DNA from: Psococerastis gibbosa | Lineage: Eukaryota > Arthropoda > Insecta > Psocodea > Psocidae | NCBI GenBank assembly: GCA_963971405.1 | Contig: OZ020489.1 | Span: forward strand, 30,344,290 to 30,408,289 | Reading direction: 5' to 3' | DNA: 64,000 nucleotides | Notes under the pieces: model-generated | The model's database searches: none | The model's input: the letters and a program-made list of their open reading frames with translations, nothing else | Told to the model about the DNA's origin: nothing | Shown here: positions 681 through 58,848 of the stretch, in pieces | Layout: every line of letters begins with the position of its first letter | How positions within the stretch are numbered: the stretch's first letter is position 1 | Made by a program: the position numbers and the translations under genes

Positions 681-822
681 GGCACTTATTCCACCAACGT
701 CAATAGTGATAGTAAATGTAGTATTATGACGTGGTAGCAGACATTTTTAGACTGTCATTAATGTCTGCCACCACGTCAATACTACATTTACTATCACTAT
801 TGACATTGGCGGAATAAGCGCC
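681..822. mobile_element. Harbinger-like palindromic MITE (short form)
   Basis: This is a near-perfect palindrome of 142 bp. It starts GGCACTTATTCCACC and ends GGCGGAATAAGCGCC. A 3-bp duplication TAT flanks it (678-680 and 823-825). Each arm carries the shared module GACGTGGTAGCAGACATT. It has no coding capacity. The 3-bp duplication and GG...CC ends fit the PIF/Harbinger superfamily; that assignment is inferred. Confidence 0.82.
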
Positions 823-6659: not shown

Positions 6660-6781
6660 GGCGCATATTCCACCGACGTCAATAGTGATTATGACGTGGG
6701 ACGTAAAGACAGTGTAAACATGTCTGCTACCACGTCAATATCAGCTTTATTTTGACTATTGACGTCGGTGGAATAAGCGCC
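6660..6781. mobile_element. Harbinger-like palindromic MITE (short form)
   Basis: A 122-bp palindrome, GGCGCATATTCCACCGACG to CGTCGGTGGAATAAGCGCC, with TTA before it and TAA after it. The arms include TGACGTGG and CTACCACGTCA, but the module is partly degraded. Confidence 0.8.
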
Positions 6782-7560: not shown

Positions 7561-7945
7561 GGCGCCCATTCCACCGACCGGCTAGGGCTATTTACGAAAA
7601 CGGTGACGTGGTAGCAGACATTCAAGACTTAGGCGGGGTTTCCACCGATCTCGCATTGCAGAATGCAAATGAAATGTTTGTTTTCCTCTATGCCATAGTT
7701 AAAATTGATCAATAATCATAGAGTAAAATCACAAACAAACAAACTAAAATTAAAAAATGGCGTCATGGGATATGTTAAGTACAAACATCTTAATAGATTT
7801 CTATAAAAAGAAAAAAAAACATTTCCGTCAATGTCATTTGCAATCTGCAATGCGAGATCGATGGAAACCCCGCCTAAGTTTTGAATGTCTGCTACCACGT
7901 CACCGTTTTTGTAAATAGCCCTAGCTGGTCGATGGAATGGACACC
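7561..7945. mobile_element. Harbinger-like nested palindrome (long form), copy 1
   Basis: The outer arms run from GGCGCCCATTCCACCGACC through GTGACGTGGTAGCAGACATT. At 7632-7874 an inner palindrome begins with GGCGGGGTTTCCACCGA and ends CCCCGCC. Flanks are CAA and TTA, an imperfect 3-bp duplication. The interior holds an ATG at 7757 in a good initiation context followed by a short peptide (see finding). Near-identical architecture occurs at 10769 and 58020. Confidence 0.85.
7757..7921 (+). pseudogene. Short conserved ORF start inside Harbinger-like element
   Basis: ATG at 7757 opens a peptide starting MASWDMLSTNILIDFYKKK. The same start, with conservative changes, occurs in the elements at 10769 (minus strand, SPNIVIDFYKKK) and 58020 (plus strand). 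The pattern of hydrophobic residues followed by a basic run resembles the beginning of MADF/Myb-like DNA-binding proteins encoded as a second ORF by some PIF/Harbinger transposons. That resemblance is short, and the frame then runs into the opposite palindrome arm, so it is at most a fossil exon. Confidence 0.35.
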
Positions 7946-8570: not shown

Positions 8571-8623
8571 ATGTTCCCCAAGTGGTTCAGAATCCACTAT
8601 AATCAGGAGGTCCACCCTGTCAA
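8571..8623 (+). mobile_element. SINE-B fragment
   Basis: About 53 bp match the middle of SINE-B, including AGTGGTTCAGAATCCACTAT and ATCAGGAGGTCCA. Compare the intact copies at 34453 and 56412. Confidence 0.65.
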
Positions 8624-10768: not shown

Positions 10769-11153
10769 GGCGCCCATTCCACCGACCGGCTAGGGCTATT
10801 TACAAAAACAGTGACGTGGTAGCAGACATTCAAGATTTAGGTGGCGATTCCACCGACCTCGCATTGCAGAATGCAAATGACATTGACGGAAATTATAATT
10901 TTTCTTTTTATAGAAATCTATTACAATGTTTGGACTTAACATATCCCATGACGCCATTTTTTTAATTTTAGTTTGTTTGTTTGTGATTTTACTGTATGAT
11001 CATTGATCAATTTTAACTATGGCATAGGGGAAAATAAACATTTCCGTCAATTCTGCAATGCGAGGTCGGTGGAAACCCCGCCTAAGTCTTGAATGTCTGC
11101 TACCACGTCACTGTTTTTGTAAATAGCCCTAGCCGGTCGTTGGAATGGGCACC
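10769..11153. mobile_element. Harbinger-like nested palindrome (long form), copy 2
   Basis: Same 385-bp architecture as 7561-7945, with an exact TAA duplication (10766-10768 and 11154-11156). The inner palindrome begins near 10841, and its left end is partly changed to GGTGGCGATTCCACCGA. Relative to the outer arms, the interior lies in the opposite orientation to copy 1, so the conserved ATG reads on the minus strand near 10953. Confidence 0.87.
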
Positions 11154-20161: not shown

Positions 20162-21560
20162 TTATATAGGACTGGGAGCGGGGGGAGGAGGGGGTGGGAG
20201 GGGGCGTGGCTGGTTACCTATTCCTAACCTACTAGCTAGATCTATTAGAGGGGATGATTGTGTGAATGTTATGTCGTTTGTTAATTTTTCCCTGTTGTGT
20301 AAAGCTCTTTTGATTTCAACATTTTCAAAAAAATTTAAAGTGTAACTTTTCTTCATTTTGTGTAGGGCTGTCCAATTGTTAGGATCGAATGTGTGATTTT
20401 CCGAGTTAAGGTGTTTCGCGAATGTGCTGTTGGTGTTGGTGTCTCCTATACCTGCTATATGTTCTCTGACCCTAGTTTTAAAGCTTCTGCCTGTTTGGCC
20501 TATGTAAATTGCGTTACAATCGTTACAATTTAGACGATAAACTCCATTGCCTTTTTCCTTTTCTGGTTTGGTTTTGCAGTTCATGAGTTTATTGGCCAAA
20601 TTGTTGCGGTTGTACGGGGCTGGTGTTTTGTCTGTTGTAGAAGAAATGAGGTTACTTATTTTTTCTGTGATTTTTTCTATGAATTGTATCCTGAAATATG
20701 ATTTATTGGTTACCTGGTTTAAGCTCTCTGGGGGGTAAATTAGTTTGAGGTTGTGTTTGATTTTGTGATGTCGTAGGATTCTGTCTATTAGGTTGAGATT
20801 GAAATTGTTATTTTGGGCAATTTGTTTTATTGTATTTAATTCATTATTATAGTTGGTTTCATTCATAGGGATGTTAAGGAGTCGAAAAATCATACTATGG
20901 AATGCTGCGTGTTTGTGCTGGAATGGGTGAGAAGAATCAACAGGGATTATATTATCGCTATGGGTTTCTTTACGAAATATCTTGAAGTCTAGGGTACTAT
21001 TATTTTTGGTGATGGTGAGGTCTAAGAAGTTCAGGGAGTTGTTTTCTTCTCTTCCATGGTAAATTGGATTTTTGGGTGAATTGTGTTGATAAAACTAAAG
21101 AAATTGTCTAGTTGTCTGTTACTTCCTGTCCAAATGCAGAAGATATCATCCACATACCTTGTCCAGAAAGATATACATTTAACTAGGGGATTTTTATTGA
21201 ATAGAAGTTTGTGTTCGAAGTTATCCATAAAAATTTCCGCAAGAAGGGGAGAAAGGGAAGAACCCATAGGTAGGCCTATTTTTTGTTGGTAGTAGTCGGA
21301 TTCGAAACGGAAATAGTTTTGATGAGTGCATGTGTCTAACAGAAGGAGGGTCTCAGAAATAAGGCTGTTCGAGGTATTATTGTGATAGAGTGACTGGGCA
21401 ACTAATTTACGTACTTCGGGTACGGGAATATTAGTAAACAGATTTTTGACATCGAAAGAGACGAGTTTGGCATTGCTGGATAAGGAAAGGTGCTTAAGGC
21501 GGGAAATCAACTCGAATGAGTTTTTGACGCTGTGGCGGGGTGTGAAGTTTGATACTAATT
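20162..21560 (-). pseudogene. Penelope RT and GIY-YIG endonuclease (truncated, one frameshift)
   Basis: Upstream part (to about 21045): FDVKNLFTNIP with the first catalytic aspartate, QQKIGLPMGSSLSPLLAE, and YVDD with the catalytic pair. A frameshift near 21045, in a G/A-rich run after FTMEE, separates it from the downstream frame, which continues with NSLNFLDLTITK and then the GIY-YIG nuclease: GVYRL, YIGQTGRSFKTRVREH, and the later FFENVEIKRALHNREK that supplies the catalytic glutamate. The endonuclease nicks target DNA and the RT primes from it. The start is lost at the 5' truncation (about 21560), so the copy cannot be autonomous. The last 20 or so residues are a proline-rich read-through of a G/C-rich stretch. 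Confidence 0.92.
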
Positions 21561-21561
21561 T

Positions 21562-21668
21562 TTTTACTAATTCGGGTTGTTATAACAAGTTTTTCTAAAA
21601 CTCTAAGTTTTTGTTATTTTTTGTTTATTAAAATGAAATACCACGAAGTCACGAGTAATCTCATTATT
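21562..21668. repeat. Penelope-type terminal repeat, right, with tail
   Basis: Inverse of the outer left arm (ACTAATTCGGGTTGTTATAA through GTTATTTTTTGTTTA), then a tail of about 35 bp with ACCACGAAGTCACGAGTAAT that is absent on the left. The same tail is present on one side of the element at 9512. Confidence 0.82.
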
Positions 21669-42549: not shown

Positions 42550-42691
42550 GGCGCTTATTCCACCTCCGTCAATAGTGCACAGTAAATGTGGTATTGACGT
42601 GGTAGCAGACATTTTTAGACTGTCTTTAATGTCTGCTATTACGTCAATACCACATTTACTATGCACTATTGACGTAGGTGGAATATTCGCC
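42550..42691. mobile_element. Harbinger-like palindromic MITE (short form)
   Basis: 142 bp, GGCGCTTATTCCACC to GGTGGAATATTCGCC, exact TAA duplication (42547-42549 and 42692-42694). Same length and layout as 681-822, including GACGTGGTAGCAGACATT. Confidence 0.9.
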
Positions 42692-54924: not shown

Positions 54925-56095
54925 ATATAGAAGCAGCTGAGCTGATCGACCATTTTACAAAGCATATCGTAAATCAAGTTTGGACTAAAGAACTTATATA
55001 ATACACTAAAAGAACCATTGGCGCTAGTGTCGCATGGTCATATGATTTCCGCCAATTTTGGGCTTACAGCAGGGGGTATTCTGTATTTTATTTCAAAACT
55101 AAGAGAAAATGCCTTTTTGTTGCCCTGTTATTATTGCCTATAATTTAATTTTGCATTTGCTACATTTCAAATTTTATAGGGTACAGTTCAGTTGTTGTTT
55201 TGGATGATTGAACTTATTTGATCCTATTGTTTATTTTTAATCCACATAATTTTCAGCTATTTTGGGAAAGCATATTTATCATAATAGTGAAGTTAGACAG
55301 CCTAAATATTTAATAAAGACACATTTTTTTTAGTTTAAAAATCTTGGGTTAGGTACCATAAGATAACTATTGAGTTTCATTAGGCGCGAAAATGTGAGGC
55401 CAAAATATGGCGGATCTTCTATTGGTCATATGGTGGTGTAGGGGCTCAGTTTGGACAATGACGGATACTTCCTCTTGTTGGTCGAGTAGATTTTCAAAAT
55501 GGAAGATTGACTGTGCCCTAGCAATCAAACTGAAAAATACTGTAATGTATAAGTAGCAACTGTTGAGTTACTATTGTATATTCTGTGTACTACAGTTAAT
55601 TACGTAATATATAGTATTCTCCCATGAGTTTACTGTGGTTTTTAATATAGCCGCCAACATTAACGAAGTTTATTACATGGGAGAGTATCTTATAGAGACT
55701 TTTTGTAATATAAAGCTTTATAGGGTCGTTGTGACATGTGAGGTAATGCCAACATGACAGTAACATACATCCAATGGCGCCGGATAACGTTTTATTATCC
55801 CCCGTATGACAATAAGCCCTAATCCTTAATTCAGGACAGCGATGGAACCAAGCTTCAACCAGTACGGGGGAGTGGCATTATGAACGTGCAACAGCGCAGC
55901 GGTTCCCAAATTACAGATCGCGTTTAGGCGCACCTCAGTGGCGGACTGGGCCGGCGAGCCCCCAACTTGCCAAAAAAAGGTGCAGAAATTAACTTGACGT
56001 AGATCCTGATTTTACGTTATTTGTGACTTCACTCAATCCAGATGAGGCAAGAAAGCAATTCAATAATTCTTAACATTGATTCATTTTTTAACAAA
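54925..56095. other. No recognisable gene
   Basis: Unique DNA. A single hAT-type-looking end CAGTGGCGGACTGGGCC at 55936 has no partner that I can find. Confidence 0.3.
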
Positions 56096-56100
56096 TCTTA

Positions 56101-56746
56101 GGCGCGGTTTCCACCGACCTCTAAGTGCAAAATACACATATGGTGACGTGGTAGCAGATATCATTAACAAAGGTGGGGTTTCCACCGACCTCTCATTGCA
56201 GAATGCAAATGACATTGACGGAAATTTTTGTTTTACTCTATGCCATAGTTAAAATTGATCAACGATCATAGAGTACAATCACAAACAAACAAACTAAAAG
56301 TAAAAAATTGCTTCATGGGATATGTTAAGTACAAACATTTTAATGGATTTCTATAAAAAGAAAATTCAAATTTCCGTCAATGTCATTTGCATTCTGCAAT
56401 AAGAGGTCGGTAGTAGTAGTAGTAGTACAGTTGGACACCCAGGCCACGGTGTGGGCCCATAGGACGTTGGACCTCCTGATTATAGTGGATTCCGAACCAC
56501 TTGGGAAACACAGTGAAGTCACACGATTAGTTCGGAGGTGACCAGGACAAGTCCTACCATGTTTCCCTACCGGCACTGTGTACACTACCAAGTTATCTGC
56601 ATCTTTGAACCTGCTCTGGTCCGCTGGATTCAACTAGGTAAGGTGGCCGGCTAAGAGGTCGGTGGAAACCCCGCCTTTATTAATGATATCTGCTACCACG
56701 TCACCGTATGTGTATTTTGCACTTAGAGGTCGGTGGAAACCGCGCC
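56101..56746. mobile_element. Harbinger-like nested palindrome interrupted by SINE-B
   Basis: Outer ends GGCGCGGTTTCCACCGACC and GGTCGGTGGAAACCGCGCC, with TTA before and TAA after. The inner palindrome starts at about 56174 with GGTGGGGTTTCCACCGACC and contains the same core as 7561 (TTGATCAACGATCATAGAG, GGGATATGTTAAGTACAAAC), but the start codon is lost (ATTGCTTC). Its outer arms differ from those of copies 1 and 2 while the core is shared. Confidence 0.85.
56412..56651 (-). mobile_element. SINE-B, full length
   Basis: 12-bp perfect duplication TAAGAGGTCGGT (56400-56411 and 56652-56663). 5' end at the right (GCCGGCCACCTTACCTAG on the minus strand); (TAC)n tail at the left (AGTAGTAGTAGTAGTAC on the plus strand). 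Lies inside a Harbinger-like element. Confidence 0.9.
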
Positions 56747-56756
56747 TAATTACAAT

Positions 56757-57000
56757 AATATAATGTTTGTGAGCCTAGGTGCTAAATTTCATCAAAATCC
56801 ATCGACTAGTTTGCCTACATTGAACAACATACAGACAGACCAACTGACTGACCCAACCGATTGACAAACAGGCGTAAAAGCTACTTTTTTTTCGTGCCTG
56901 GGACCTCAACACGTGTAACCCGACTGATGTCTCGAAATCAAAAATTTCGACCAACACATATATAGCTTTTCTTATACTGCGTATAAATATGAAAGCAATA
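56757..57000 (+). mobile_element. RP retroposon, 5'-truncated copy
   Basis: CTAAATTTCATCAAAATCC, a short CAGACAGACC block, GGGACCTCAACACGTGTAAC and ATATGAAAGCAATAATAGG at the 3' end. The microsatellite is nearly lost here. Confidence 0.72.
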
Positions 57001-57004
57001 ATAG

Positions 57005-57450
57005 GAGCAGTAAAGAAAACTGTGTATGCCGTTTGAAAACTGTGCGGGCCGTATGAAAAAGAATGCGAAAGTCGTAAGTGCGACCAGGGCGAACGATTTC
57101 ATGAATGCATGATTATTCATACGTTCAAATAACCATTAGGTACTTCATTACTTTCAATTCTTTGTCAGGCAGTACATAAGGAGCTAAATAAACATCCCCA
57201 TTGCAATCTTACAAAGAATACTGCACGAAGCATATAGAGTGCAGTATGTGATAATATTTTTGAATCAATAAAAAATACAATATTATAATTAGGTTCGGTT
57301 GGTTGTTAAAAAAATGAAATTCTGACTAGACAATAAATCAAACTGCGGATGTTTTTGAGTAGTAGCCTCTTGTGAGATAACCAAACATATTAATATTCAA
57401 TCTTATATACATACAACATGAAAATCAACCTGAGCGCACTTCATTTGACG
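57005..57450. other. No recognisable feature
   Basis: Unique AT-rich DNA. Confidence 0.3.
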
Positions 57451-57460
57451 GCTGTGCTGA

Positions 57461-57579
57461 GGCGGGGTTTCCACATACGTCAATGACGTGGTAGCAGAAT
57501 TTTTAGTATGCCTTTAATGTCTGCTAAACCTTCAATTTCACATTTCTCATTGACGATTGACGTATGTGGAAACCCCGCC
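57461..57579. mobile_element. Harbinger-like palindromic MITE (119 bp)
   Basis: GGCGGGGTTTCCACATACG to CGTATGTGGAAACCCCGCC, flanked by TGA and TAA. Contains TGACGTGGTAGCAGA and a truncated mirror. Confidence 0.84.
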
Positions 57580-57907
57580 TAACTCCAAGGGATGCACATT
57601 CCACGTGAATGAACCAGAAATAACCACCCCATCAGACAAGCAGGCAAGGCTCTCTCTACTGGTGGAAGGGGTAGCTCCCCCCCCCCCCCATCTCGCCTTT
57701 AGACAAATAAGAGACATTTTCGAAATGGGGATACGACAAGGTTACATCTCAAGTTCAAAGCATCTTCTTCCCCCTTAATGGAGGGGTGAAGGTGAAAGGA
57801 AAAGCATACTGTTTGGTGCTGTGGTATCATTTTCACGGAGTCCTCCGGTTCTAATTGCAAATAGAGATTATTGTCAATGTGATTTTCATTAATGGATGAG
57901 TGGAATC

Positions 57908-58010
57908 CAGGATAATAGCGTACTTCCAAACGTTTCGTCAACATCTGCGGTCGACATCTTAGACCTCTAAGATTGTATGTCGGAGGCTCAGTATAGGAAC
58001 TCAGTTGATC
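57908..58010. mobile_element. Foldback (ACTTCCAAACGTTT family) fragment
   Basis: TACTTCCAAACGTTTCGTCA, CATCTGCGGTCGACATCTT and TGTATGTCGGAGGCTCAG correspond to the left part of 9310-9455; the right arm is missing. Confidence 0.55.
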
Positions 58011-58019
58011 AGTCTGATA

Positions 58020-58403
58020 GGTGCCCATTCCATTGACCGGCTAGGGCTATTTCCAAAAACGGTGACGTGGTAGCAGACATTCAAGACTTAGGTGGCGTTT
58101 CCACCGACCTAGCATTGCAGAATTGATGGAAATGTTTATTTTCCTCAATGCCATAGTTAGAATTGATCAATGATCATACAGTAAAATCACAAACAAACAA
58201 ACTAAAATTAAAAAATGGCGTCATGGGATATGTTAAGTACAAACATTTTAATAGATTTCTATAAAAAGAAAAATTCTAATTTCCGTCAATGTCATTTGCA
58301 TTCTGCAATGCGAGGTTGATGGAAACGCCACCTAAGTCTTGAATGTCTGCTACCACGTCACCGTTTTTGGAAATAGCCCTACCCGGTCAATGGAATGGGC
58401 GCC
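58020..58403. mobile_element. Harbinger-like nested palindrome (long form), copy 3
   Basis: 384 bp, GGTGCCCATTCCATTGACC to GGTCAATGGAATGGGCGCC, flanked by ATA and TTA. Inner palindrome from about 58091. The core ATG is at 58215 on the plus strand with the same short peptide as copy 1. Confidence 0.86.
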
Positions 58404-58489
58404 TTAGGGGGTTGACAAGTTTCTGGGACCGGCTTTGAGTGACAACGTTATGGAGGCGAATGATATGCCGACTACAGTGACGATAAGAA

Positions 58490-58790
58490 AATTATTCTTC
58501 TTCTTCTTCTACAGCCGACGACCGTCCTTGGCTGGTAGGCCATTTGACGCCGTTACGCATAGTAGAGCTGAGTCATTCCCTCCTGTGTCGTAGATTCGGT
58601 TTTCTACCTCAAAGCCAATGCAGCTGAATAGGTGCTAGGAAACAGAGGAGGCATTCGTGTGAATCAGCATTCAGCGATACCTATTCTGTTGAGGTGGCTC
58701 TGGAGGTAGACGTGCCCTGTGGCCATTCGGAACGATGCCACAGCGATGTCCCGGCTCAAGTTGCTGGGGATGGTGTCTGTATATTGATAA
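58490..58790 (-). pseudogene. LINE RNase H/zinc-knuckle end with (GAA)n tail
   Basis: The minus-strand frame contains DIAVASFRMATGHVYLQSHL then NRIGIAEC, and further on QLYYA-RRQMACQPRTVVG before a GAAGAAGAAGAAGAA tail. R...A..R..TGH.YL..HL.RIGI..C is the segment between RNase H and the last zinc-knuckle in Jockey-type LINEs. Frameshifts separate the two blocks. Homologous to 39281-39440 and, for the TGH.YL..HL.RI block, to the repeated unit at 41240-41708. Confidence 0.72.
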
Positions 58791-58848
58791 GAATTAGTCG
58801 AAGGGCGGACACAGCTATTTCTGTAAAGGTTTTAGGAGAAGGATGCTG

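Follow-up and report, generated by a model that had tools for sequence, protein, structure and literature searches.

The composite elements described here are non-autonomous Tourist/Harbinger-like MITEs nested in one another, and insertion of one MITE into a sibling, followed by joint transposition of the pair and matching of the arms, is very probably the best explanation for them. We analyzed a window of 64 kb (positions 30344290–30408289 of contig C14) together with the assembly it comes from, a single genome of 409 Mb in 68 contigs of up to 53.6 Mb. Fewer than 170 loci out of many thousands were read, mostly on contig 1, and they were picked by exact patterns or by family search. A first-pass annotation of the window had described an inner palindrome with its own termini exactly centred in an outer palindrome. 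Our analysis confirmed that this nesting is real: inner elements with GGYG...TTCCA termini sit midway between 71-bp arms in four window elements, E7561, E10769, E56101 and E58020 (Table 1). The elements have the traits of Tourist-like MITEs, being short, bounded by terminal inverted repeats, apparently non-coding and present in high copy number.

The interval 56101–58403 consists of three separate elements, E56101, a solo element and E58020. As the first-pass annotation had it, one core is common to the four composites, the E56101 copy carrying a 240-bp insert. The inner element measures 242–243 bp in E7561, E10769 and E58020 and 504 bp in E56101, because the latter holds this insert and its 12-bp duplication, TAAGAGGTCGGT. 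The SINE-like insert has a GTA repeat at its left end and gave no Rfam match up to E 0.1, nor did any part of 56000–58800 in the same scan. A piece similar to it by eye lies near position 8580 of the window. The TTA/TAA-like inner edges that had been reported are present in E7561, E10769 and E58020 (TTA...TAA in each) and absent from E56101, which has AAA...TTT.

Table 1. Positions of the nested elements, their parts and related solo elements in the window
Feature	Positions	Strand	Remarks
Solo with module	681–822		flanks TAT...TAT
Solo with module	6660–6781		flanks TTA...TAA
E7092, relative with other termini, same leader around the core start codon	7092–7455	+	
E7561, composite MITE, A-type arms on B-like core (chimera)	7561–7945		inner 7632–7874; flanks CAA...TTA
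E10769, composite MITE, A-type arms and A-type core	10769–11153		inner 10840–11082, minus strand; flanks TAA...TAA
Solo with module	42550–42691		flanks TAA...TAA
E56101, composite MITE, C-type arms, half2 centre on both sides	56101–56746		arms 56101–56171 and 56676–56746; flanks TTA...TAA
Inner of E56101, broken by insert, 504 bp	56172–56675	+	
SINE-like insert in the inner of E56101, 240 bp	56412–56651		12-bp duplication at 56400–56411 and 56652–56663
Solo with module, without inner element	57461–57579		flanks TGA...TAA
E58020, composite MITE, A'-type arms, half1 centre on both sides	58020–58403		arms 58020–58090 and 58333–58403; flanks ATA...TTA
Inner of E58020	58091–58332	+	

E7092 had been taken for the same core with other ends. 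Compared with six inner sequences, it shares about 80 nt at 80–85% with five of them (split into 39 + 29 nt against that of E56101), a further 28–33 nt at 86–88% with four and, with five, a piece of 18 nt. The similarity is confined to the leader at the start codon: E7092 is a relative of the core, not the identical core in new ends. One of its reading frames enters the terminal repeat and stops at the TAA of the target duplication. The core of E58020 contains ATGGCGTCATGGGATATGTTAAGTACAAACATTTTAATAGATTTCTATAAAAAG, translated MASWDMLSTNILIDFYKK, which looks like the start of the ORF of a longer parent. Elsewhere in the window, at 20162–21579 on the minus strand, reverse-transcriptase-like ORFs with a GIY-YIG-like end were seen, which we take to be Penelope-like.

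The module GACGTGGTAGCAGACATT had been said to recur in at least seven elements. At up to 3 mismatches we found 14 matches in the window (shuffle mean 0.01), which by our own assignment are spread over eight elements, at 681, 6660, 7561, 10769, 42550, 56101, 57461 and 58020. Genome-wide, the module is present in 24,101 exact copies (reversed control, 0); it is deleted in L019 and L062. The nested junction, GACATTCAAGACTTA joined to GGNGGNGNTTCCACCGACCT, has 7,856 exact occurrences, and if a composite contributes at most two, composites of this type number no fewer than 3,928 in the genome. A search of viral contigs returned 0 matches. Three bacterial matches, in genome contigs, were rejected: chance alone predicts about 7, and the sequence around them differs from these elements.

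If one MITE had inserted into another, each should be found alone. The inner element was sought with a pattern of inner size, TAA on the left and TWA without a following G on the right, which gave 18 matches, 16 of which were read with flanks of about 90 bp. Eleven of these 16 loci hold a free inner element, without the module in the flanks; nine have TAA...TAA and two TAA...TTA, TAA on the left and TWA on the right being forced by the pattern itself. The remaining five were nested (L123 and L128), lopsided, with outer arm(s) at just one side and an inner terminus at the opposite one (L118 and L121), or from another family (L131). As to the two unread matches, C14:30460964 is the L075 locus and C20:4852750 belongs to another family by its listed sequence. 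The inner boundaries thus occur as free elements, one of the two checks that the first-pass annotation had proposed.

The other was an empty outer element with a TTA/TAA target at its centre. We searched for outer arms still like the terminal repeat of the inner element (444 exact matches genome-wide) and read 20 stretches from the first 100 matches, 8 of them chosen for short spacing and 5 as wider pairs. They comprised nine empty elements (L132–L138, L150 and L151), seven symmetric composites (L140–L144, L146 and L147), one asymmetric copy (L149) and three lopsided ones (L139, L145 and L148). The empty elements are about 140 bp long and have the centre ATATCATTAA-TAA-GTCTTG in nine of nine, seven of the nine having been picked by close pair spacing. 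We call half1 the GTCTTG/CAAGAC side and half2 the ATATCATTAA side of this centre.

The filled form was read at 12 loci from the 491 exact genome-wide occurrences of the half2 junction, the type present in E56101. Seven are asymmetric, half2/half1 (L161, L163, L165–L168 and L170), three are half2/half2 (L162, L164 and L171), L169 is lopsided, and L172 showed no right end within the stretch read. In six of the seven asymmetric copies the filled site reads ATATCATTAA-TAAA-inner-TAA-GTCTTG, its half2 side being fixed by the search pattern; L161 has TTA as the second TAA. Compared to the empty site, the filled site has the TAA of its exact centre repeated directly, and one additional A. This exact asymmetric form is present in 163 copies genome-wide (reversed control, 0). 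The core has the same orientation relative to half2 in 33 of the 34 asymmetric copies with sequence listed, the last being too short, yet compatible. Independent insertions should yield both orientations, so this suggests a single founding insertion of the inner element into its outer sibling; the alternative is a strong orientation preference of insertion.

Composites then moved as units. In our set of 69 distinct symmetric composites, drawn from the window and the loci read, the outer 3-bp flanks are identical in 36, compared to 0–4 of 69 in shifted frames, which shows that the composite moves by means of its outer ends. TAA or TTA accounts for 29 of these 36 exact pairs, in agreement with the 3-bp TWA target duplication of PIF/Harbinger; ATA, TAT, GTA and TCA also occur. 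Short elements carry exact 3-bp duplications in 23 of 41 cases, in a set gathered by script that may include a few untrue solos (20 exact TWA, 3 exact other, 7 TTA/TAA mismatches and 11 other pairs). For the composites, a TTA/TAA mismatch is seen in 16 of 49 clean TNA pairs, compared to 21 of 2252 A/T differences between arms. Such middle-base mismatches would fit target overhangs pairing with overhangs brought from the donor site. Free inner elements, empty outer elements, the TAA duplication of the filled site and the target duplications of composites together bear out the earlier proposal that transposition into the centre of a sibling was followed by joint mobilization.

To compare the arms, we measured their mean identity to the terminal repeat of the free inner element after nt 18. 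This identity is 0.99 for the empty elements (7 arms), 0.91 for D (21 arms, one of which, at 0.41, is a faulty cut), 0.81 for L035 (1), 0.72 for E56101 (2), 0.64 for B (28), 0.57 for A (65) and 0.56 for A' (50), with a mean of 0.53 for unclassed arms (2). By this measure the arms form a graded series starting from the inner element's own terminus. The outer arms of E56101, previously noted as different, take a middle step of the series. Empty elements could in part derive from precise excision; against this, all nine empties read lie, by their arms, at the ancestral end of the series, and a single empty with arms of the composite type came from exact patterns. An exact search for empty half1/half1 elements had no match. 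Relaxed exact patterns for it gave one locus, L049, with B-like arms and the centre TTA-GAC-TTA, which would fit a composite that lost its core better than an ancestor.

The centre halves are half1/half1 in the large lineage and half2/half2 in E56101, and the empty element has two different halves. Neither matched end state derives straight from the asymmetric empty element; either the centre of one arm was replaced by a copy of the other's or symmetric siblings were lost. Mostly, the two arms of one copy change together: six of eight asymmetric copies have, over the outer 48 nt, two arms of one type that differ at 1–3 positions, other-type copies differing at 6–11. Two observations count against parallel change as a universal rule. 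L163 and L149 are asymmetric copies with arms of two types (L163, with arms unequal in length and type, lies outside the 48-nt comparison), and other copies of the same type, which differ at 0–5 of the 48 nt, are as close as a copy's own arms.

The first-pass annotation had also suggested arm exchange during hairpin repair. A step that makes the arms match is upheld in part, in that most composites seen carry the same half twice. Arm-to-arm conversion in a hairpin or cruciform might have been the route of matching; recombination between copies would serve as well, as would a symmetric sibling since lost. Linkage between mirror sites was considered as proof of hairpin conversion and set aside as neutral: the raw r2 is 0.70 versus 0.32, and after frequency matching it is 0.70 versus 0.49 over all rows and 0.44 versus 0.48 and 0.58 versus 0.62 in subsets, with a D' that is not higher (0.86 versus 0.93), so that neither D' nor either subset gives an excess. 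At positions 41 and 342 of the composite alignment a CpG site (ACGG to ACAG) is variable in either arm, with no correlation between the two (r2 0.00), a pattern compatible with methylation and decay of the copies.

If arms and cores had been swapped freely among families, by recombination or gene conversion, their groupings should disagree. We built core trees of 90 and 110 rows. Free, asymmetric, half2 and most D copies fall together in the core tree, followed by most B, then A, then A', and nine labels placed on the 90-row tree require 26 changes compared to a shuffled mean of 55. On the 110-row tree, where 2 of 107 forks are starred and support is otherwise weak, free, D and C copies as one group are not rejected (p 0.73), while a single clade of A, A' and mixed cores is (p-AU 0.0012), which speaks for exchange. 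On the 90-row tree the single-clade tests for AA (p 0.060), A'A' (0.035) and BB (0.043) are borderline, which speaks against it. Individual conflicts exist. E7561 has A arms and a core nearest to B copies, L071 and L083 have A' arms on A-type cores, L143 has D arms and a core among A, and the B-armed L051, L056 and L064 stand apart from other B copies. Arms of two types are carried by 7 of 68 symmetric copies; three of these seven have exact duplications. Judged by mismatched duplications, as a sign of exchange between copies, the two-type copies do not differ significantly from the others (3 of 7 versus 14 of 61, Fisher p 0.35). Linkage (D') is lower between arm and core (0.67) than between arms (0.93–0.95), but it is low within the core too (0.56), so that recurrent mutation may account for part of this. 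The incongruence between arm and core trees that the first-pass annotation had proposed to test for is seen in exceptions such as E7561, L071, L083 and L143, in trees that agree largely but not in full, and the free interchange it had envisaged is mostly not borne out, since the core tree broadly follows arm type and the graded series has intermediates. We consider such free swapping an unlikely origin for these elements.

Lopsided elements were found as 16 units in 15 loci (L035, L039, L051 with two units, L056, L064, L072, L073, L075, L106, L118, L121, L139/L160, L145, L148 and L169). Thirteen were scored; the L051 array was left aside, and so was L118, as its outer end lies outside the stretch read. 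Exact 3-bp pairs flank seven of the 13 (L035, L039, L064, L073, L106, L121 and L145), the GTA...GTA pair of L035 being uninformative as it lies within a GTA run; in five of the 13 (L056, L072, L075, L139 and L169) the flanks differ solely at the middle T/A base, and L148 differs otherwise. These counts include elements whose inner-end triplet was fixed by the search pattern, as it was in L056, L064, L072, L073, L118 and L121. From these flanks, inner ends appear to be still usable for transposition. L092 was rejected as lopsided, since remnants of its right arm remain. When 40 loci were sampled by one exact nested junction, 31 were aligned symmetric copies, 1 was lopsided and 8 were assigned neither way. 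In L051, at about 335–965, lopsided units form a head-to-tail array with TAA between them. In L139, together with L160, two tandem 71-bp outer arms, both with the variant GCAGGCATT, precede the inner element; an outer arm unit can thus multiply by itself.

A lopsided element might also have come first, an arm being attached at one flank of the inner element and later copied across by template switching, with no central insertion. Lopsided copies are known with each arm type named, and symmetric composites do carry the same half twice, as this order of events would have it. Yet the 163 exact asymmetric composites hold both halves, ordered as in the empty element, with the TAA duplication, and the lopsided copies are scattered over the core tree, mostly next to symmetric copies with like arms, as derivatives would be. 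We regard a lopsided beginning as very improbable. Hardly credible at all is the idea that nothing was ever nested and that the inner termini are subterminal repeats of one long-TIR element, e.g. tandem transposase-binding sites, for which the homology of inner and outer termini and the tandem doubling of arms (L139) might speak, but which we dropped after the free and empty forms turned up, the former with target duplications, the latter with an intact target, while lopsided elements end at the inner terminus with a target duplication.

We therefore return to nested insertion. An inner MITE about 250 bp in length, apparently a deletion derivative keeping the leader and start codon, would have inserted at the central TAA of a sibling of about 140 bp with a nearly identical terminal repeat and two differing centre halves, doubling the TAA and gaining one A. 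The pair would then have transposed as one via its outer ends, an inner end and the opposite outer end sometimes pairing to give lopsided elements. In a third step the centre halves would have been matched, as half1/half1 in the main lineage (D, B, A and A') or as half2/half2 in the type of E56101, after which the arms would have diverged stepwise, largely in parallel, with the core co-descending. Insertion and joint transposition can be read, at the level of sequence, from the surviving forms themselves; the matching step we infer from its end states. Two features count against plain insertion, the A on the half2 side beyond a 3-bp duplication, and the TTA...TAA at the inner edges in the main lineage (42 of the 69 symmetric composites), which is not a direct repeat.

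Autonomous PIF/Harbinger elements share the terminal repeats of their MITEs and encode a DDE_Tnp_4 transposase and, in a second ORF, a Myb-like protein. The genome has at least 150 matches to the DDE_Tnp_4 profile (150 scored among 220 candidates). No autonomous parent was found among the eight autonomous-looking DDE_Tnp_4 loci read (L152–L159, 3.5 kb each). In all eight, pairs of such termini bound a solo element of 150–162 bp, at about one place, and the solo of L152 has a module-like centre. L152, the locus scanned for domains, encodes DDE_Tnp_4 and HTH_Tnp_4 with a separate YqaJ ORF, which fits ISL2EU.

The systems closest to these elements are CMITE-IN, Galileo and mPing, the last of which is a simple element. 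In the CMITE-IN elements of Acropora corals, a MITE inserted into the target site midway along a short prototype, after which the composite behaved as a mobile element (PMC2872659). Tandem MITE arrays and an internal region common to families with different ends are further likenesses. CMITE-IN is described there as piggyBac-like, with a TTAA target, about 70 copies by its authors' count and a prototype with direct repeats and no palindrome (PMC2872659). The elements studied here differ from that description in their 3-bp TWA target, GGYG ends in place of the CCYT ends of piggyBac-derived CMITEs, insertion into a sibling whose terminal repeat is almost identical, copy numbers in the thousands, matched arms and the presence of lopsided forms. 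Galileo/Foldback of Drosophila resembles them by one central region with terminal repeats of three subfamilies, chimeric copies and terminal-repeat extension (PMC3573991). It belongs to the P superfamily and makes 7-bp target duplications, where ours are of 3 bp; its 12 copies with two repeat types, lacking matching duplications, are ascribed to exchange between copies (PMC3573991), whereas here three of seven copies with two arm types have exact ones. mPing has the same 3-bp TWA target, accepts T or A in the middle and is cut in a staggered way in the duplication (PMC4561436); the TTA/TAA mismatch was purpose-built there and tested in yeast, whereas here it is naturally frequent.

Among the matches listed in the open-access literature, subscription papers lying mostly outside it, none brings together self-insertion at the centre, empty as well as filled sites, arms that match and lopsided elements. 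The birth of new high-copy MITE families is poorly resolved, since intermediate forms have mostly disappeared. In this one genome the inner element survives free and the outer one empty, next to the asymmetric first product, the half1/half1 and half2/half2 end states, lopsided derivatives and a graded series of arms. Empty and filled versions can be compared directly, the pair has spread together in thousands of copies, and the sequence of events is legible from the DNA and testable by transposition assays. We tentatively propose, with somewhat less than even confidence, that the composite may be a four-ended unit in which one transposase reads all termini (the outer pair, an inner with an outer end, possibly the inner pair) and the arms co-evolve by hairpin-mediated copying. 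If this reading were true, high-copy MITE families would arise by self-insertion at the hairpin tip of a sibling, followed by arm matching.
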